64,000 bases of DNA, from assembly GCF_000731315.1 (NCBI RefSeq), contig NZ_HG938353.1, forward strand, positions 2,542,001 through 2,606,000. Direction: 5' to 3'. Made by a program: the position numbers and the translations under genes. This DNA comes from Neorhizobium galegae bv. orientalis str. HAMBI 540 (lineage in GTDB: Bacteria > Pseudomonadota > Alphaproteobacteria > Rhizobiales > Rhizobiaceae). Positions 2,622 to 24,313 of this stretch are shown here, piece after piece (position 1 is the stretch's first letter; every line of letters begins with the position of its first letter). The notes below the pieces were generated by a model. That model was not told the DNA's origin and did not search any database. It was given only the letters and a program-made list of their open reading frames with translations.

Positions 2622-3575
2622 ATGTTCAAATTCGCGCATATTTCCGACATCCATCTGGGGCCGCTTCCAAACCTGACGCTTCGCGAGCTTTTCTCGAAGC
2701 GGATCACCGGTTTTGTGAACTGGCACCGCAATCGGCGCAAGCACCTTTTCGTCAACACGCTCGACCTGCTTTTGAGCGATTTGAAGACGCGCGAACCGGA
2801 CCAGTTGGTCATCACCGGCGATCTCGTCAACCTGGCGACGAAGATCGAGACGCGGCTTGCCGGCGAGTGGCTGCGCACCATCGGCGACCCCTATGATACG
2901 ACTGTGGTGCCCGGCAACCACGACGCCTATGTACCCGGCGCGCACGACAAGTCGGTCAACGAATGGTACCCCTTCATCAAGAGCGACGACGACCCGGCTG
3001 AATGGCCGGAGGAGGATCATATCTTCCCGACGCTGCGCCGGCGCGGACCGCTCGCCATCATCGGCTGCTCGACCTCCAATGCCACCCTGCCCTTTTCGGC
3101 GTCCGGTTATTACGGCTCGCGGCAGGCGCGCGAGACGGTCAATCTGTTGAAGAAAGCGGGAGATGAGGGTCTCTTCCGGGTCGTGCTGATCCACCACCCC
3201 CCGATCCGAGGCGCCGCCTCCTCGCACAAGCGCATGCTCGGCATCCGGCGGTTCGCAGCCGCGATCTCCACCGGCGGCGCCGAACTGGTGCTGCACGGGC
3301 ATACGCATCTCAACACGCTGTACTGGCTGCGAAGTCATAGCGGCAACGTGCCGGTGGTCGGCATCGCATCGGCCTCCCAGGGGCCCGGCGGACACAAGCC
3401 GCGCGCCGCCTATAACCTCTTCACGCTTTCCGGCGAAGCCGGCGCCTGGAACCTGCTCTGCGAACGCTACGGCCTGACGGAATGGGGCGACGGTGTCGCG
3501 CTCGACAACAGCCGCCTCCTCTATGGTGAAGAGCCGGCGACGATGTCGATTCCGCAAGTCGCGAGAATGTTGTAG
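2622..3575 (+). CDS. metallophosphoesterase (calcineurin-like, CpdA-type)
   Basis: A 317-aa dinuclear-metal phosphoesterase. All five motifs of the family are present in order: D-I-H near the start (FAHISDIHLG), G-D-L-V-N, G-N-H-D, H-H-P-P and G-H-T-H. I chose the ATG at 2622 because the motif I aspartate normally lies within about ten residues of the N terminus; an in-frame ATG at 2604 is possible. Relatives include cyclic-AMP phosphodiesterases and phosphodiesterases of unknown substrate, so the substrate is left open. It reads alone and ends just upstream of the sigma-factor operon. Confidence 0.88.
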   Translation: MFKFAHISDIHLGPLPNLTLRELFSKRITGFVNWHRNRRKHLFVNTLDLLLSDLKTREPDQLVITGDLVNLATKIETRLAGEWLRTIGDPYDTTVVPGNHDAYVPGAHDKSVNEWYPFIKSDDDPAEWPEEDHIFPTLRRRGPLAIIGCSTSNATLPFSASGYYGSRQARETVNLLKKAGDEGLFRVVLIHHPPIRGAASSHKRMLGIRRFAAAISTGGAELVLHGHTHLNTLYWLRSHSGNVPVVGIASASQGPGGHKPRAAYNLFTLSGEAGAWNLLCERYGLTEWGDGVALDNSRLLYGEEPATMSIPQVARML

Positions 3576-3673
3576 AATCAATGGCGCGATTGTTGCGGAA
3601 TCGCCACAATCTCGTCATAGCTATTACTTCGTTCCGGTTATTGCAGTAAATCACAGGTAAGCCGCTCCTATCC

Positions 3674-4153
3674 ATGACCCAATCGAGCCCATCGACCGAC
3701 ATTCGGCGCGATCTCGTAGCGCTCCTGCCGCGCCTGCGCCGTTTTGCGCTGACGCTGACAGGAAGTGCTGTCGAGGCCGATGACCTGGTTCGCGAAGCGG
3801 CTGGCCGGGCGATCCAGAAAAGCCATCACTGGAAGGGCGAAGGCCGGCTGGAAAGCTGGCTTTTCAGCATGATCCGCAGCACCTTCGTCGACGAATCCAA
3901 GAAGCGCCGGCGCGCCGAAATCCATGCTGTCGACGATACCTCCCCGGCCGAAAACTCCCGTCCGTCGACCGCCCTCGTCTGCCTGCCGGACGGCTTGGCA
4001 AGCGTTTTCCTGCTCGCCGACGTGGAGGGGTTCGCCTATGCCGAGGCGGCCGCCATCCTCGGCATCCAGCCGGATCTCTTCGCCACCCGTCTTTGCGCTG
4101 CACGTCTTAGCCTGGCGACCGCCGCCGCCCAGACGAGCGAGCGGAGAGCGTGA
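3674..4153 (+). CDS. ECF-type RNA polymerase sigma factor
   Basis: A 159-aa protein with the two sigma-70 domains of ECF factors. Region 2 covers about residues 10-75 (ADDLVREAAGRAIQ, then LESWLFSMIRSTFVDE, the region 2.2/2.3 pattern), and region 4 about 105-150, with the helix-turn-helix YAEAAAILGI..LFATRLCAAR. It is followed almost immediately by a membrane protein that looks like its cognate anti-sigma factor. The signal sensed is unknown. A convincing autoregulatory -35/-10 pair was not found upstream. Confidence 0.85.
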   Translation: MTQSSPSTDIRRDLVALLPRLRRFALTLTGSAVEADDLVREAAGRAIQKSHHWKGEGRLESWLFSMIRSTFVDESKKRRRAEIHAVDDTSPAENSRPSTALVCLPDGLASVFLLADVEGFAYAEAAAILGIQPDLFATRLCAARLSLATAAAQTSERRA

Positions 4154-4155
4154 GG

Positions 4156-5001
4156 ATGAACATCCCCCATCCGTCGTCGCTCGAACTGCGGCTTTCCGCC
4201 CATATCGATGGCCAGATCAACGAGCAGGACCGGCACGATGTCGAGGAACTGCTGGTCAACGATCCGCAGGCACGGTCCCTGCAAGATGCCCTGAAGCGCG
4301 GGGCCGATCTCGGCCGGCGCGCGTTTGACGATATGCTGAAGGAACCGGTTCCGCTCAATCTGGTGCGCACCATCAAGAATGCACCGCTGCCGCGCCGGGC
4401 CATACGCCTGCCGCAGGGGCCGCGCCCGACGCTTTCCTTCAAACCGTCCGGCCTGCAGGCGGTCGCCGCCTGCGCCCTGTTTTTCGTGTTCGGCGGCGGT
4501 ATCGGCTATATGGTCGGCGGCAACCCGGCGGCTCCGCAGTTTTCGATGATTTCCATTCCCGGCACCAGCAGCCGCGACTGGCTGGACGATATCATCGCCC
4601 ACTACCGCCTCTATGCGCGCCAGACCAATCATCTCGCCGAAATCCCCGCCGAAAGGCCAGCCGATATCCTCGAATGGCTGACCACCAATACCGGCGTCGG
4701 TTTTCGTATCCCCGATCTCAGCGACAGCGGCCTGACCTTCCAGGGTGCCCGCCTGTTTGCCGCTGGCGGCGCGCCGGTCGGCCAGCTTCTCTACCGGCGC
4801 ACCGACGGCGATGGAGACGGCGACGTGATCGCCATTTCCTTCACCAAGGCCCGGCCCGAGGGTAACCGCTCGATCGAGGAAATCCGCAACGATACCGGCC
4901 TCGTCTCCTGGGTCACGCCGCTCGCCACCTACATGGTCGTCGGCCCCTCGTCTGCGGCAGATCTGGATGATATCGCGGCAAAGGCGGCGGGGTTGATTTA
5001 G
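4156..5001 (+). CDS. putative membrane anti-sigma factor
   Basis: A 281-aa protein, translationally linked to the sigma factor: the ATG at 4156 lies 2 bp after its stop, with GGAG at 4143-4146 as ribosome site; a GTG at 4150 is an alternative. The N-terminal ~90 residues are cytosolic and contain an anti-sigma-like start (ELRLSAHIDGQINEQDRHDVEELL). A single hydrophobic span follows (LQAVAACALFFVFGGGIGYMV, around residues 100-120). The C-terminal ~150 residues would be periplasmic. No zinc-binding H-x3-C-x2-C motif is seen, so it is not a ZAS-type anti-sigma factor. The role is inferred from architecture and position. Confidence 0.78.
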   Translation: MNIPHPSSLELRLSAHIDGQINEQDRHDVEELLVNDPQARSLQDALKRGADLGRRAFDDMLKEPVPLNLVRTIKNAPLPRRAIRLPQGPRPTLSFKPSGLQAVAACALFFVFGGGIGYMVGGNPAAPQFSMISIPGTSSRDWLDDIIAHYRLYARQTNHLAEIPAERPADILEWLTTNTGVGFRIPDLSDSGLTFQGARLFAAGGAPVGQLLYRRTDGDGDGDVIAISFTKARPEGNRSIEEIRNDTGLVSWVTPLATYMVVGPSSAADLDDIAAKAAGLI

Positions 5002-5172
5002 GGCGGTTGTTAGCCGAAAGTGCATCCGACTATTCTGCTCAATTCAGGCTAAGCATTTGAGACTCGGAAAATGTGCCGCCCTTCGGGCGATCGAGTTGAC
5101 ACCTCCCTGACACCAGATTGGTGCCGGCAACCATTCGCGATGAATTGTTCTCCAATCAAAGGAGAACGAAGC

Positions 5173-5370
5173 ATGGATTTACCAATTCTCATCATCGTGA
5201 CTGTTCGATGTGAAGGCCGAGCAGGCTACCATATCGTGTATTGGTGCTCATCGACCTGGAGAGGCCCTATCAAACGCTTTCGAACACGTGACGATGCCGT
5301 GGAATATGCATCATCAATCTACGCAGCCTACGGGTATCCCCAACTCTATCGCGGCATCAGGTTGAGCTAG
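5173..5370 (+). CDS. small hypothetical protein (65 aa)
   Basis: A 65-aa protein starting at the ATG at 5173, which has a strong CAAAGGAGAACGAAGC ribosome site; the upstream part of the open frame lacks one. It opens with a short hydrophobic strand (MDLPILIIVTV), then a basic region (RGPIKRFRTRDDAVEYASSIYAAYGYP), a pattern seen in small alpha/beta proteins. I do not recognise a family. The gene is isolated, 171 bp from the anti-sigma gene. Confidence 0.6.
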   Translation: MDLPILIIVTVRCEGRAGYHIVYWCSSTWRGPIKRFRTRDDAVEYASSIYAAYGYPQLYRGIRLS

Positions 5371-18130: not shown

Positions 18131-19690
18131 TCAGGTCTCGTCGGATCGCGTCGCGGCAACCGCGGCCAGTTCCGCCTCCTCCGCGATATCCTCCGCTGTC
18201 TCACCTCCCCGCCCGAGGAAGAGGAACACTACGACCGCCGTCAGTGCCGTGATCGCGGTCAGCAGCCACAGGAGCGAGGAGAACCCGTGGCTATAACCCT
18301 GCAGCAGGGCCGCCTGCCCCATCGACGGCACCAGTCCCGCCGCATCCCGCAGGTCGCCGGTCACCAGCCGTTGGGCAATCGCGCCCGCCTGGTCGCCGGC
18401 GCCACTGCCGAGGTTCGCGCTGGTGAGCGCCGAAAGTACCGCCGTCACCACCGCAAGCGCCACACCTTCGCCGGCAACCCGCGTGGTGCTGAAAATGCCG
18501 GTCGCCATGCCGGCTCTTTCTTTCGGCACGACGCTGACGGCGAGACCGTCCATCAGGCCCCAGGGCAGGCTGATGCCGACGCCGATCGTCAAGAGCGGCG
18601 CAATCAGCGCCACTGGCACGGAGCCCACCGGAAACTGGCTGAGCCAGAACAGGCCGACCGCCGAAATCGCAAGGCCGGCGCCACAAATCGTCGCCGGCGC
18701 GAACCAGCGCGTCAGCAGTCCGGCGGCGATCGGCAGGACGAGGAGCGGCCCGGACAGCGCGATCATCATCCGCCCGCCAGCGATCTCGTCCATGCCTTCG
18801 ATGCCGATGAACCGCACTGGCAGGAGGATGAGCAGCACCACGAACGCATAGGCCGGCGCCGCCGCCAGCAATTGCACGCCGACGAAACGCGGATAACGAA
18901 ACAACGTGAGGTCGAGCATCGGCCGTGCCACGGTCCGTTCGATCAGGCCGAAGGCGAGGAAAAGCAGGACTGCCGCCAGAAGCATGACGATGACAAGCGG
19001 ATCGCCCCAGCCGCTTTCCGGCGCCTGCAGCACGCCGAAGGTTAGGGCGGTCAGCGCCGCGGTGAAACTGAGCGCCCCTTTCCAGTCGAGACCGGACGCG
19101 TCCGGATCGCGCGATTCCCGCACGAAGATTGCACCGAGTATGAGCGCCACCGCCGCCAGCGCGACGACCAGCATGAAGATTGCCGGCCAGCCGAACATGG
19201 CGATCATCCATCCCGATGCGATCGGCCCGAAGGCGAGCCCGATGCCGAAACTGGCGCCGACGATGCTGAAAGCCCTGAGCCGCGCCGCGCCGTCGAATTC
19301 CTGGGCGAGCGACGCCATGCCGCCGGAAAAGGCGGCCGCCGCGCCGATGCCCTGCAGCGCCCGCAGCACGTCGAACCAGACGATATCGCCCGCGAAGGCG
19401 AGACCGATCGAAAATAGCGCGAAGATACCGAGGCCGCTCAGGAAAATTCGCTTGCGCCCATAACTGTCGGCGAGCGCGCCGGCGGCCATCAGCGTGCTGC
19501 CGAAGGTCAGCATGAAGGCATTGGTGGCCCAGTTGAGGGCAATCGGACTGCCACCGAGGGCCCGGCTGATGGCGGGCAGGCCGACGGCCGTGCCGGTGAA
19601 GGTGAGCGGCATGGCGGCCGCCGCGCAGCAGACTGCGAACAGAACGAACAGCCGTCCGGCTGGCGTTGCAGCATGTGTGTTGTCTCTCAT
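18131..19690 (-). CDS. MFS multidrug exporter (DHA2/EmrB type)
   Basis: A 519-aa transporter with about 14 membrane spans. It starts at M-R-D-N-T. Motif A is seen as G-A-L-A-D-S-Y-G-R-K-R after TM2 and the antiporter motif C region as GIGLAFGPIASGWMI. The conserved SFGIGLAFGP and GISLPWGLMDG stretches support the DHA2 group, which exports drugs and other hydrophobic compounds using proton motive force. It is divergent from a LysR regulator across 183 bp, the usual arrangement for a regulated exporter. Substrate unknown. Confidence 0.9.
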   Translation of the reverse strand: MRDNTHAATPAGRLFVLFAVCCAAAAMPLTFTGTAVGLPAISRALGGSPIALNWATNAFMLTFGSTLMAAGALADSYGRKRIFLSGLGIFALFSIGLAFAGDIVWFDVLRALQGIGAAAAFSGGMASLAQEFDGAARLRAFSIVGASFGIGLAFGPIASGWMIAMFGWPAIFMLVVALAAVALILGAIFVRESRDPDASGLDWKGALSFTAALTALTFGVLQAPESGWGDPLVIVMLLAAVLLFLAFGLIERTVARPMLDLTLFRYPRFVGVQLLAAAPAYAFVVLLILLPVRFIGIEGMDEIAGGRMMIALSGPLLVLPIAAGLLTRWFAPATICGAGLAISAVGLFWLSQFPVGSVPVALIAPLLTIGVGISLPWGLMDGLAVSVVPKERAGMATGIFSTTRVAGEGVALAVVTAVLSALTSANLGSGAGDQAGAIAQRLVTGDLRDAAGLVPSMGQAALLQGYSHGFSSLLWLLTAITALTAVVVFLFLGRGGETAEDIAEEAELAAVAATRSDET

Positions 19691-19873
19691 ATCGGAGATT
19701 CCGCTGTTTTGGAGCAAAAGGAAAGGCTGGCGGCCTGGGAGAAGCCGTCACCTAAACCGATCCGGCCGGAAGGGTATCGATTGACCAACACAAGATAGTT
19801 TTGACACAATGATTAGAAAATCCTCCGTCTGTTCCTTACATGACGGAAGAAAACGCTCGAATGGGAGATGGTT

Positions 19874-20785
19874 ATGGATCGCCTGGGTGGATTGACGGCC
19901 TTCGTGCGCACCGCTGATCTCGGCAGTTTCGTCGCAGCCGGCCGGGTGCTCGGTCTTTCGGCTTCGGCGGTCGGCAAGGCCGTCACCAATCTCGAAAAGG
20001 ATGTCGGCGTCCGGCTTTTCCAGCGCTCGACGCGCAGCCTGCGCCTGACCGAAGAAGGCCGGCTATTCCACGAACGCTGCCGCCGCGTGCTCGACGAGCT
20101 GAACGATGCCGAAGCCTCGCTGGCAAGCGCCATCGCCGTGCCGCGCGGAAAACTCAGGGTCAGCGTGCCGATCGTCACCTATCATCTTCTGCTGCCGGTG
20201 CTGCCGGAATTCGTCGAGCGCTACCCGGAGATCGAACTCGATCTCGATTTCAACGACCGGGTCGTCGACCTGATCGACGAAGAGGTCGACGTGGCGATCC
20301 GCAGCGGCAACCTGCCGGATTCGCGGCTGATGTCACGGACACTCAGGCCTTTCCAGATGCTTCTCTGCGCCGCGCCTTCCTACCTCGAACGCCACGGTAC
20401 TCCCGAATGCCCGCGCGAGCTCGATGGCCATCTGGCGATCCGTTTCCGCTATCCGAACAGCCGCAAGATCCAGGATTTGCCGATCACCCTGCCGCCCGAA
20501 GGCGCCGAGCCGCACCTGCACACGGCGCTCACCTGCAACAACATGGAGGCACTGCGCAGCACCGTCATCGCCGGCCTCGGCATCGGCTGCATGCCGGATT
20601 TCCTGGCAAGGGCACCCGTCGCCGACGGCCGGCTGCGGACGATCCTCGACGAACACCTCAACGCCCCTGGCCAGTTCCACCTCCTCTGGCCCTCCAGCCG
20701 GCACCTGTCGCCGAAAGTGCGGGTGCTGGTCGATTTTTTGAGCGAGAAACTGTTCACGGAGACGTGCGAGAAGCTTTCCTCGTAA
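19874..20785 (+). CDS. LysR-family transcriptional regulator
   Basis: A 303-aa regulator with an N-terminal winged helix (SFVAAGRVLGLSASAVGKAVTNLEKDVGVRLFQRSTRSLRLT) and a C-terminal substrate-binding domain from about residue 90. Start set at the ATG at 19874, with GGGAG 6 bp upstream. It is of the CrgA/DsdC-like subgroup that often controls a divergent exporter, which here is the MFS gene. The effector is unknown. Confidence 0.92.
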   Translation: MDRLGGLTAFVRTADLGSFVAAGRVLGLSASAVGKAVTNLEKDVGVRLFQRSTRSLRLTEEGRLFHERCRRVLDELNDAEASLASAIAVPRGKLRVSVPIVTYHLLLPVLPEFVERYPEIELDLDFNDRVVDLIDEEVDVAIRSGNLPDSRLMSRTLRPFQMLLCAAPSYLERHGTPECPRELDGHLAIRFRYPNSRKIQDLPITLPPEGAEPHLHTALTCNNMEALRSTVIAGLGIGCMPDFLARAPVADGRLRTILDEHLNAPGQFHLLWPSSRHLSPKVRVLVDFLSEKLFTETCEKLSS

Positions 20786-20869
20786 GTGGCTACCGTTTCG
20801 TACCAGTATGACACCCATTGTCAAAAAAAGGTCTCTGTTGATTTGCCTTGAGATTCGCTAAACTGAATT

Positions 20870-21454
20870 ATGGAACAAGAACAAGTTCAGATACCTGCAT
20901 TCAAAGCGGCGCGGCTTGACGCTATCGAAAATTATATAGCAATGGAGCACAATTATATTGCGATAATTTCAATATTACTGAAAATACCACATGAACAGGC
21001 CATTTCCATCGCATCTGGCATGTTAAATTCAAAATCTCGTTTAGTTTTAGTGGGAGATTTGATCCAGCCATTGGCCACCGAAGCCATGCCTTTTTGGCAA
21101 GAAGTCCGAGAGCGTATCGAGAGGCTCGATATTATGCGGAATAAAATTGTCCATTGGATAGAGGTATATCAAGAAGGTCCGCGCGATGACACTGGGAAAG
21201 TGATTTCTCCCACCGTCTCAAAGCTAGTGCCGTGGAAAACATTCGTTGGAACGGATAAATCAGCCCTCGATATTCATGCGCTGCGCGAGTTTTCAGCTAG
21301 AGTGAAATACACAAATCAATTGTTAGCTCATCTCGCAGCTTACTTTTTATACTCGCCTGAGATGAAACTCACGTTCAGGAGTATCTTTGTAAAGAAACCA
21401 GATGATAATACGCTAAATCAATTGTTTGCTTTGATTGAGAAAGCTGCGCGCTAA
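20870..21454 (+). CDS. orphan protein with HEPN-like RNxxxH motif
   Basis: A 194-aa, mostly helical protein of no family I can name. R90-N91-K-I-V-H95 in ERLDIMRNKIVHW matches the HEPN signature (R, polar residue, x3-5, H), which in many toxins and defence proteins is the RNase active site. Base composition is unlike its neighbours: a hand count of 20881-21360 gives about 43% GC, against well over 60% around it, which suggests recent transfer. There is no clear ribosome site; TTGATT and TAAACT lie just upstream, so the mRNA may be leaderless. No partner gene is adjacent. Nuclease activity is only inferred. Confidence 0.6.
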   Translation: MEQEQVQIPAFKAARLDAIENYIAMEHNYIAIISILLKIPHEQAISIASGMLNSKSRLVLVGDLIQPLATEAMPFWQEVRERIERLDIMRNKIVHWIEVYQEGPRDDTGKVISPTVSKLVPWKTFVGTDKSALDIHALREFSARVKYTNQLLAHLAAYFLYSPEMKLTFRSIFVKKPDDNTLNQLFALIEKAAR

Positions 21455-21458
21455 CCAT

Positions 21459-21962
21459 TCAACTCAATATCACCGCCATCCCGATGCTGTCGATGTACCG
21501 CCCGTCGATCCTCACCGCATCGCGCGCCACGCCCTCGCGCACGAAGCCGACCTTTTCATAGAGCGCGATGGCGCGCAGGTTGTCGGCGTGCACATGCAGT
21601 TCGACGCGGTGGAAGCCGCGGTCTCGGGCCTGCCCGACCGCGGCGCGGATCAGCCGCGTGCCGAGCCCCTTTTCGCGATAGCCGGGGATGATGCCCATGC
21701 CGAGCGTGCCGCAATGGGCATGCGTCGGCTGGGGATACCGGCGGATGTCGCACCAGCCGACTACGTCGCCGCCGGCAACGGCGACGACCTGCGGATGGCC
21801 GTTCTCGATCATGTCGAGCACGAATGTCCGCACGCTTTCGAGCGGCGGCGCCTCCAGGAAGGTCAGATATTTCCGCTCGCGCGAGACCGTGTCGAGCGCT
21901 TTGTGGAAGCTTTCGATATGGTCCTCGCGGATAGAGTCGATCGCGATGGCTTCGGCCGACAC
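21459..21962 (-). CDS. GNAT family N-acetyltransferase (RimI/MddA-like)
   Basis: A 167-aa acetyltransferase. The acetyl-CoA loop is in LGMGIIPGYREKGLGTRLI (R/Q-x-x-G-x-G), followed by ELHVHADNLRAIALYEKVGFVREGVARDAVRIDGRYIDSIGM, the typical RimJ/RimI-like C-terminal half. Substrate not determined. It starts 1 bp after the trpE(G) stop and is probably co-transcribed with it. Confidence 0.88.
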   Translation of the reverse strand: MSAEAIAIDSIREDHIESFHKALDTVSRERKYLTFLEAPPLESVRTFVLDMIENGHPQVVAVAGGDVVGWCDIRRYPQPTHAHCGTLGMGIIPGYREKGLGTRLIRAAVGQARDRGFHRVELHVHADNLRAIALYEKVGFVREGVARDAVRIDGRYIDSIGMAVILS

Positions 21963-21963
21963 C

Positions 21964-24153
21964 TTACGCCGCCTTGGTCTTTGCCCGCCGCGACAGATGT
22001 GCCACGACGTTTTCGATCATCCGCATGCCGGCATCGCCGCCGAGCGTCATGATCGATTCCGGGTGGAACTGCACCGCCGCAACCGGCTCCTTGACGTGCT
22101 CGATACCCATAATCGTGCCGTCCTCGCTTTCGGCGGTGATCATGAAATCCGGATGCAGCGTCTTCGGATCGGCGAAGATCGAGTGATAGCGCCCGACAGT
22201 GACTTCCTTGGCGAGCCCGGAGAAGACGATGCCCGGCTCCAGCACCCGGATGCGCGACGGCTTGCCGTGCATCGGCACCGCCAGGTGTCTCAGTTCCCCA
22301 CCATAGGCTTCGGCCAGCGCCTGCAGGCCGAGGCAGACGCCGAAGATCGGCAAGCCCTTCGAGCGCGCCAGCTTGATCGTCGCCTTGCAGTCGAAATCCT
22401 TCGGATTGCCGGGCCCGGGCGAGAGCACGACGAGGTCCGGATCGAAGCGGTCGAACACCTCCTCCGGCACCGGCGTGCGCACGGTCGAAACCATAGCCCC
22501 CGTCTGGCGGAAATAGTTGGCGAGCGTATGGACAAAACTGTCCTCGTGGTCGACGAGCAGGATCTTGACCCCTTGGCCTACCCGCGCCACGTCGCGGCCG
22601 GCCTTGGCCACATTGCCGGCCTTTGCATCACGGATCGCTGTCAGCATAGCCGACGCCTTCAGTTCGGTTTCTGCCTCTTCCTCGTTCGGATCGCTGTCGT
22701 TGAGCAGCGTCGCGCCGGCGCGCACCTCGGCAATGCCGTCCTTGATGCGGATGGTGCGCAGCGTCAGGCCGGTATTCATGTCGCCGTTAAAGCCGACCAT
22801 ACCGATCGCCCCGCCATACCAGGCGCGCGGGCTCTTTTCGTGGTTCTCGATGAACCGCATAGCCCACAGTTTCGGGGCACCGGTGACGGTGACGGCCCAG
22901 GCGTGGCTGAGAAAGCCGTCGAACGCGTCCATGTCCGGCCGCAGACGCCCTTCGATATGGTCGACCGTGTGGATGAGCCGCGAATACATTTCGATCTGCC
23001 GGCGGCCGATCACCTTCACCGAGCCCGGCTCGCAGACACGGGATTTGTCGTTGCGATCGACATCCGAGCACATGGTGAGTTCGGACTCGTCCTTCTTGGA
23101 ATTCAGGAGCTTGAGTATCTGTTCCGAGTCGGCAATCGGATCCTCGCCGCGCTTGATCGTGCCCGAAATCGGGCAGGTCTCGATGCGCCGGCCCGACACC
23201 CGCACGAACATTTCCGGCGAGGCGCCGACCAGATATTCCTGGTGGCCGAGATTGATGAAGAAGGAATAGGGCGACGGATTGATCGCCTTCAGCCGGTTGG
23301 AGATTTCCGAAGGCTTGCTGTCGCAGCGCTCCATGAACTTCTGCCCCGGCACCACCTCGAACAGGTCGCCGCGCCGGAAACTCTCCTTGGCCTTGGTGAC
23401 GAGGGCCGCATATTCGCCGGGCCGATGGTCGCCCTTCGGCGGTATCGTGTCATTGCGCTGGAACGGATCGGGCGCGATCTCCTGGTCCTTGCCTTGCGTC
23501 GTCACGCCATCCTTGGAAAAGTCGTAGCGGTCGATCCAGGCCTTGGCCGCATGATGGTCGACGACGAGGATTTCATCCGGCAGGAACAGAACCATGTCGC
23601 GCTGGTCTTCCGGCCGCTGCATCGAAAGCTTGATCGCGTCGAACTGGAAGGCGATGTCGTAACCGAAGGCACCGAACAGGCCGATCGCCGAATCCGCTTC
23701 CGAATGGAACAGGTCGACGATAGCCCGCAGCACGGAAAACACCGTCGGCATCTTCGAGCGCTCTTCCTCGGTGAACACGCGCGTCGGCTCGTTGACGGTG
23801 AGGTCGAGGCGCCGGTCCGTCCGCGCCCCGAGCGTCAACTCGGCCACCGTCTTCAGCTTGTCCGCGACAAAACCGAGCAGCACTTCGCCGCGGCCGTTGA
23901 AGGCTTCGATCCACACCCGGCGGCCATTCGAGGAGATCCCGAGCGGCGGATCGGCGATCGCCGTATCCCAACGGGTATAACGGCCCGGATATTCGTAGTT
24001 GGAGGAAAATACCGCGCCGCGCCGCTCGTCGAGCCTGTCGACATAGGAGGAGATCGCATCTGCATAAGGGGCTGCGCGCCGCTGGCGGCTGACCGCAATC
24101 CCGCCCCTCGTCTCGTAGACTTCCGAACCGTCATCCCGAATGATCGTTACCAT
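21964..24153 (-). CDS. trpE(G): fused anthranilate synthase TrpE-TrpG
   Basis: A 729-aa single-chain enzyme that makes anthranilate from chorismate and glutamine. The N-terminal ~520 residues are the TrpE domain ([53 protein letters not shown]). The C-terminal ~195 residues are the glutamine amidotransferase with the nucleophile in FGVCLGLQA and the His-Glu pair in VQFHPES. The TrpE(G) fusion is characteristic of rhizobia and relatives, and 729 aa matches the known form. The start at M-V-T-I-I is within 50 bp of an attenuator controlled by the trpL leader. Confidence 0.96.
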
Positions 24154-24200
24154 TGTCCTGCCTCTCCAATGTCTTTGCCCGGGTGCCTGCGGCGGATAAC

Positions 24201-24230
24201 AAAAAAGCCGCCTCGGGTTCCGGGCGGCTT
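24201..24230 (-). terminator. trp attenuator terminator
   Basis: On the minus strand AAGCCGCC and GGCGGCTT pair, followed by T6 (AAAAAA at 24201-24206 on plus). It lies between trpL and trpE(G) and is the expected transcription attenuator stem. Confidence 0.92.
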
Positions 24231-24256
24231 GTGGTCTTGTCGATGGACATGACTGG

Positions 24257-24313
24257 TCAAGGCCGCGTTGAGCGTGCCGGCCACCAGTTAGCAATGGTCA
24301 TCGAATTCATCAT
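24257..24313 (-). CDS. trpL: tryptophan leader peptide
   Basis: A peptide of 17-18 residues containing tandem tryptophans (T-I-A-N-W-W-P-A-R), 103 bp upstream of trpE(G). It senses charged tRNA-Trp for attenuation, as characterised in Sinorhizobium meliloti. Two ATG codons are adjacent at the start. No ribosome site precedes them, and the promoter places the transcript start at or within two bases of the first ATG, so the mRNA is probably leaderless. There are two Trp codons here; some relatives have three. Confidence 0.9.

Follow-up and report, generated by a model that had tools for sequence, protein, structure and literature searches.

The subject of this analysis is a small gene (20870–21454, plus strand) in a stretch of 64,000 nucleotides from Neorhizobium galegae bv. 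orientalis str. HAMBI 540 (contig NZ_HG938353.1, positions 2,542,001 to 2,606,000), the whole of which is referred to below as the window. Our results showed that this gene is an exchangeable insert of the window genome and a member of a divergent HEPN family that is uncatalogued and has no recurring partner. Its product is very probably a HEPN-type ribonuclease. In a broader form, we think it rather likely that the protein is a stand-alone HEPN endoribonuclease of an uncatalogued family that acts through abortive infection or dormancy; that defence by one of these routes is its main role seems to us an evenly balanced proposition. HEPN ribonucleases are central to phage defence, toxin–antitoxin systems, and CRISPR effectors. 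The features discussed are the following:

20870–21454, plus strand: gene for a HEPN-type protein of 194 amino acids, 42% guanine plus cytosine (GC), defined by its open reading frame (ORF), GC content, profile family, and structure model
21137–21154, plus strand: codons of R90-N91-K-I-V-H95 (RNKIVH), an Rx4H motif whose R is followed by a polar residue, from sequence reading and alignments
20945–20947, plus strand: codon of E26, a conserved acidic residue that precedes the motif, from alignments
20776–21470, no strand: variable slot, an inserted or replaced stretch with approximate ends, from a break in homology with five relatives
19868–20785, plus strand: left flank, outside the system, a gene that we take to encode a LysR-type regulator (recognised from its sequence, without a domain search), whose 3′ end differs from that of relatives at the slot boundary
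21459–21962, minus strand: right flank, outside the system, a GNAT acetyltransferase gene (PF00583, expectation value [E] 4.7e-21), with its last codons at the slot boundary

The original prediction, made from the sequence alone, had reported R90-N-K-I-V-H95 in a 194-amino acid protein encoded at about 43% GC, and both points were borne out. The ORF starts with ATG, and its GC content is 0.42, compared with 0.62 for the whole window and 0.49 for the 1-kb bin 20501–21500. The proposed active-site pair also proved to be conserved. Among 22 aligned proteins (alignment A3), R90 and H95 were the only invariant residues (22/22), and N91 was kept in 21, the exception being P0021 with S. In 30 loci found by profile, independently of the motif, R occupied position 90 and N position 91 in all 30, and H position 95 in 29; this count includes the window itself and 21 loci from a single branch, named RNKY. 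The one locus without an aligned H (L087) has an ORF that reads RNKYNH just beyond the end of the alignment. E26 was conserved in 26 of the 26 rows of alignment A4, several of which were picked with the motif, and in 30/30 of the profile-found loci. Loci L056–L062 and several A4 rows provide no evidence of conservation because they were selected or displayed by the motif. E26 lies in the first helix of the structure model and is followed at position 30 by I instead of K or R; many HEPN families have a second conserved acidic residue in helix 2, typically within Ex3[KR] (PMC3710099).

HEPN domains are all-helical, up-down four-helix bundles in which the motif ends helix 3 and reads Rx4-6H, with a polar N, D, or H after the R (PMC3710099). 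The structure prediction proposed as a check gave a helical bundle of this type: the AlphaFold2 model built with an alignment (predicted local distance difference test [pLDDT] 81.5; predicted template modeling [TM] score 0.76) has helices at residues 10–37, 41–49/54–68, 70–95, and 135–160, and the motif (90–95) closes helix 70–95 and precedes the loop to helix 135–160. Judged from these predicted helix limits, the model has the four-helix HEPN arrangement, its motif closing helix 3. A model from the single sequence (pLDDT 42) was of no use. Foldseek found no significant match in the PDB, HEPN structures tied with unrelated bundles, and a sequence search of solved structures gave weak matches to unrelated proteins. 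In a fold search of BFVD, one match was outstanding (A0A4Y5TZQ9, E 2.1e-3, TM 0.55/0.65).

That the protein has no recognised family was also confirmed, with no match at E ≤ 10 in Pfam, PADLOC 2.0.0, NCBIfam, or PHROGs; HMMER filters discard most matches above about 0.1. For PF18735 there was no match to the window protein at E ≤ 10 and none in its genome (G000). PF18735 was nevertheless the only HEPN model of Pfam touched by the A3 family (2 of 22 members, best E 0.042). PF18734 (HEPN_AbiU2) matched neither the window protein nor anything in G000, and profile comparisons with PF18735 (four sequences) and PF18734 (two sequences) were not significant. The 22 family members gave only one weak PADLOC 2.0.0 match, to LmuB (E 0.043). 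The three G000 matches to PF05168 (HEPN) are all on contig C2, remote from the window. HEPN families can be hidden from curated models because of their fast divergence.

The description of the gene as an orphan holds for direct searches only, because profiles reach many distant homologues. A direct search of about 5.8 billion proteins returned two matches, the window protein itself and P0002 (79%), and a search of 150 genomes at E ≤ 0.001 found a match in one, its own. There was no match to the window protein in plasmids and phages at E ≤ 1, none in plasmids to P0010 or the L061 HEPN protein, and none in phages to L066 or L065; scans with a two-sequence alignment, and of viral contigs with A3, gave no relative. 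Across 397 genomes of the order (E ≤ 0.1) there were 15 foreign matches, of which L032 (matched over residues 9–109) and L040 (12–100), both carrying RNxxxH, were accepted as relatives; the other 13 were dropped, four after display and nine without being looked at. A further search gave six foreign matches, of which three were displayed and none was taken, and L055, from another search, was dropped. With L040 as query, L054 was found (E 2.4e-6). The five-row profile A2 recovered 21 proteins, the weakest at E 2.7e-13, including the window protein and P0002; two of the 21 (P0003 and P0004) are rows of the query alignment. The profile of A3 (22 rows) matched 68 of the 297 genomes of the taxonomic family, the window's own included, and the per-locus results given here cover the 30 loci stored from that search, with the window locus among them.

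The RNKY branch, which makes up 21 of these 30 loci, is also represented in the window's own genome. Its member there is a HEPN-type ORF with the motif RNKYNH (L104:7989–8522; G000:C1 around 3528588); the start of this ORF and the end of a LuxR-like regulator ORF overlap. The tree placed the window gene in a clade of 11 with several alphaproteobacteria and Burkholderia. This tree has long branches, 14 of its 23 inner forks are weak, its bootstrap is unsettled, and it may be wrong in joining the window gene to L064.

The evidence for an exchangeable insert comes from the slot between the LysR and GNAT genes. Homology to five relatives ends at window positions 20771–20779 and restarts at 21466–21471. 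All 57 genomes of the genus, the window's own included, have the right flank, and the left flank was also held by five of the 29 stored relative loci (L003, L004, L005, L006, and L026, the last with a left match of just 42 bases at the edge of the stored locus). None of these five has a HEPN gene in the slot interval. L003 has a HigA-like helix-turn-helix gene there (Pfam-supported), L004 only 84 bp, L005 a GFA-domain gene (Pfam), L026 one of the same kind by sequence, and L006 a HigB gene (Pfam-supported) with a HigA-like gene. As DNA, the left insert edge (105 bases) matched only itself below E 0.18 in 57 genomes. Direct repeats around the gene are only short and two-copy, and a candidate inverted repeat lies near the slot ends (20766–20778/21439–21451). 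A simple consensus scan of the plus strand found no promoter-like site and no terminator. Beyond the GNAT gene lies a presumably trpE(G)-like gene (21964–24294), recognised by eye.

Some of the relatives are found in mobile contexts; the neighbouring genes of the relatives were mostly judged by eye from ORF lists, and domain searches covered 20 proteins. The GC content of the HEPN gene was below that of its locus, by 0.04 to 0.27, in 16 of 16 tabulated loci (the window, L056–L062, L093–L095, and L105–L109; the own-genome paralogue L104 is missing from the table), and the RNKY branch showed no such drop (e.g., L070 and L077). IS1595 elements with passenger genes are known. Two loci, L061 (about 3127–5239) and L062 (about 879–2991), share a 2.1-kb element that is 95% identical and lies at different sites. 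It consists of an IS1595 transposase gene (PF12762, in L061) and a single HEPN gene, without a second passenger; its inverted ends are of the type GGGATTACGTAGTTGACACCACA, and 8-bp duplications read by eye, GAATTTTA and GAAAGAAT, flank it. The two contigs are titled Xanthobacteraceae and Acidobacteriaceae, apparently belong to one dataset, and may reflect a binning error. The two HEPN copies differ at 20 nucleotides, with a ratio of nonsynonymous to synonymous change of 0.24 (Fisher p 0.0017); this transposon-borne relative is under purifying selection. Searched as DNA, the L061 element matched seven plasmid records over 4–7% of its length, in the transposase part.

A tblastn search with two IS1595 transposases (E ≤ 1e-5) covered 23 loci, of which 19 are distinct and four are repeats, as well as the window; seven of the 19 distinct loci were positive: L057, L058, L061, L062, L071, L090, and L094, two of which are the query loci. 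In L071, the stored locus ends within the transposase. In L058, L090, and L094, the match is limited to a C-terminal piece of the transposase, which precedes an intact HEPN gene of the same orientation. In L057, 1.3 kb separate the transposase from the matched HEPN gene, and a second HEPN-like ORF lies in this interval; the two HEPN-type ORFs (RNKVVH and RNYYAH) adjoin the transposase gene (L057:9899–12860). L071 also has two HEPN-type genes; they lie on opposite strands, both downstream of a single IS1595 transposase, and a similar leader precedes each. The window itself gave no IS1595 match in this search and no transposase remnant at E ≤ 1 in 20001–22500, and its likeness to IS1595 end repeats was weak (P 0.02/0.05 on the left and 0.12/0.23 on the right, against two backgrounds, uncorrected); we do not claim that the window gene is a leftover of such an element. 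Three other relatives lie among phage genes (PHROGs): L106 near tail sheath and tape-measure genes, L107 near portal, protease, and head genes, and L108 near a terminase gene, with a nearer neighbour that has no match. In L059 (9545–11763), a RusA-like gene lies 3 bp upstream of the HEPN gene and a TIR-domain gene downstream, a row that is possibly a small defence cluster.

The gene was said to have no adjacent partner, and this agrees with what was found: between the LysR and GNAT genes there is no other complete ORF of at least 50 amino acids, the remaining small ORFs (27–49 amino acids) are antisense, and no nucleotidyltransferase gene lies beside it. The suggested survey of homologue neighbourhoods for a linked nucleotidyltransferase or antitoxin yielded no recurring partner in the ORF lists of the tabulated loci, apart from the element shared by L061 and L062. 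The RNA upstream of the window gene folds no better than shuffled sequences (z 0.17), Rfam gave no match at E ≤ 1 over 19500–22500, and at gathering scores it found only a transfer RNA in six stored loci. In some relatives, a small ORF is divergent from the HEPN gene and overlaps its 5′ end:

L071 1365–1441 and 2958–3022 (at both HEPN genes), L090 1366–1442, and L105 9679–9724 (L064/L105): small ORFs with the KGDEVLRRLLKTPPDP motif

This ORF was rejected as an antitoxin, being absent in the window and present beside other genes on plasmids, where it occurs near transposase genes or adjoins a non-HEPN gene (L130–L132). No HEPN relative was found in the three plasmid regions fetched, of four matches, that have it, and it looks like a mark of transposon cargo.

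HEPN ribonucleases are metal-independent and act as dimers with a shared cleft. The window protein would likewise be expected to dimerize and to cut RNA at a metal-independent site, leaving 2′,3′-cyclic phosphate ends; both subunits would contribute their R90 and H95 to this site, along with N91 and possibly E26. The protein itself, low expression, or an unlinked factor may keep it inactive, a linked antitoxin being probably needless, until an infection or stress signal switches it on and the infected cell becomes dormant or dies. We propose more tentatively that this large, mostly alphaproteobacterial HEPN family could be a portable, antitoxin-free, one-gene immune module, carried as IS1595 or prophage cargo that protects its carrier or host from competing mobile DNA; the gene would outlive the transposon, and one branch would now be a common resident in the window's taxonomic family. 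The HEPN superfamily is known, and what is new here is a family without a library model and its apparent single-gene spread, partly via IS1595. In its transposon-borne form, the gene would be an example of a candidate one-gene immune effector carried by an insertion element, and a single small gene is open to direct functional tests.

Other explanations have to be weighed against a stand-alone defence ribonuclease. Toxins are common among HEPN proteins (PMC3710099), the AbiF protein of Clostridioides difficile is controlled by an adjacent noncoding RNA (PMC12373285), and the HigB–HigA pair in the L006 slot implies that the site accepts toxin–antitoxin cargo. The window protein could then be the toxin half of a toxin–antitoxin system in which the antitoxin is a small RNA, as in the case of AbiF, or a protein encoded elsewhere. 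We regard this as unlikely, though it is the strongest of the competitors: the upstream RNA fold is not unusual, Rfam gave no match over 19500–22500 and only the transfer RNA in the six stored loci, the repeats around the gene are short and two-copy, and neither a recurring partner nor, in the transposon, a second passenger gene accompanies it. A linked antitoxin in particular is improbable because what moves appears to be a single gene. Another possible role lies outside defence, in housekeeping or regulatory RNA processing, with mobility incidental; it would suit the RNKY branch, given its share of the stored loci and its member in the window's own genome. This fits less well a low-GC gene found directly in one of 150 genomes, in a clade of 11 that spans Burkholderia and alphaproteobacteria, and we consider it somewhat less likely again.

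Selfish or decaying cargo, kept by transfer alone and possibly inactive in the window genome, would account for the irregular distribution, the mobile contexts, and the lack of a plus-strand promoter-like site in the consensus scan. However, the active-site residues are the best conserved of all, and the transposon-borne relative is under purifying selection, which makes mere cargo improbable. Lastly, the protein might not be HEPN at all but an unrelated helical protein in which RNxxxH occurs by chance, as the missing significant matches to curated HEPN models and to the PDB, and the tie of HEPN structures with unrelated bundles, would allow. Against this, no stretch of the family, which was found by whole profile, is better conserved than the motif, and the motif has the right position in the predicted structure; we think such a coincidence very improbable.

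A stand-alone HEPN ribonuclease can be compared with several known systems. A literature search on solitary HEPN genes found no paper. The members of PF18735 (HEPN_RiboL-PSP) that were read share an Rx4H motif with the window protein, and in two sampled cases the PF18735 gene comes directly after one that we take to be DUF262-like. The window locus has no such gene, and its protein has no PF18735 match. HEPN-MNT pairs (type VII toxin–antitoxin) have the HEPN motif in common with it and differ in their nucleotidyltransferase gene, which is not adjacent here. The integron-associated HEPN protein (PDB 3jrt; PMC3710099) is likewise encoded by a gene spread by a mobile element; the carriers seen here are IS1595-type transposons and prophages, and integrons were not searched for. 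AbiF/AbiD and AbiV are HEPN proteins tied to phage resistance (PMC3710099; PMC12373285). The C. difficile AbiF has the motif RNQCAH and is neutralised by its adjacent noncoding RNA partner (PMC12373285), AbiV has typically lost the motif histidine (PMC3710099), and neither PADLOC nor Pfam gave a match to the window protein. Tha is an anti-phage HEPN ribonuclease of Staphylococcus aureus prophages with the motif R265NSIMH270; it is activated by phage tail proteins, and its H270A mutant loses protection (PMC11087260). Compared by description, Tha-1 has 301 amino acids, a C-terminal HEPN domain (residues 184–296), and a prophage-encoded inhibitor, whereas the window protein has 194 amino acids with its bundle nearer the N-terminus. 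The two share an RNxxxH motif (RNSIMH in Tha) and an association with mobile DNA, relatives of the window protein also lying among phage genes. By analogy, a sensor and effector in one protein, as in Tha, is the best working model for the window gene.
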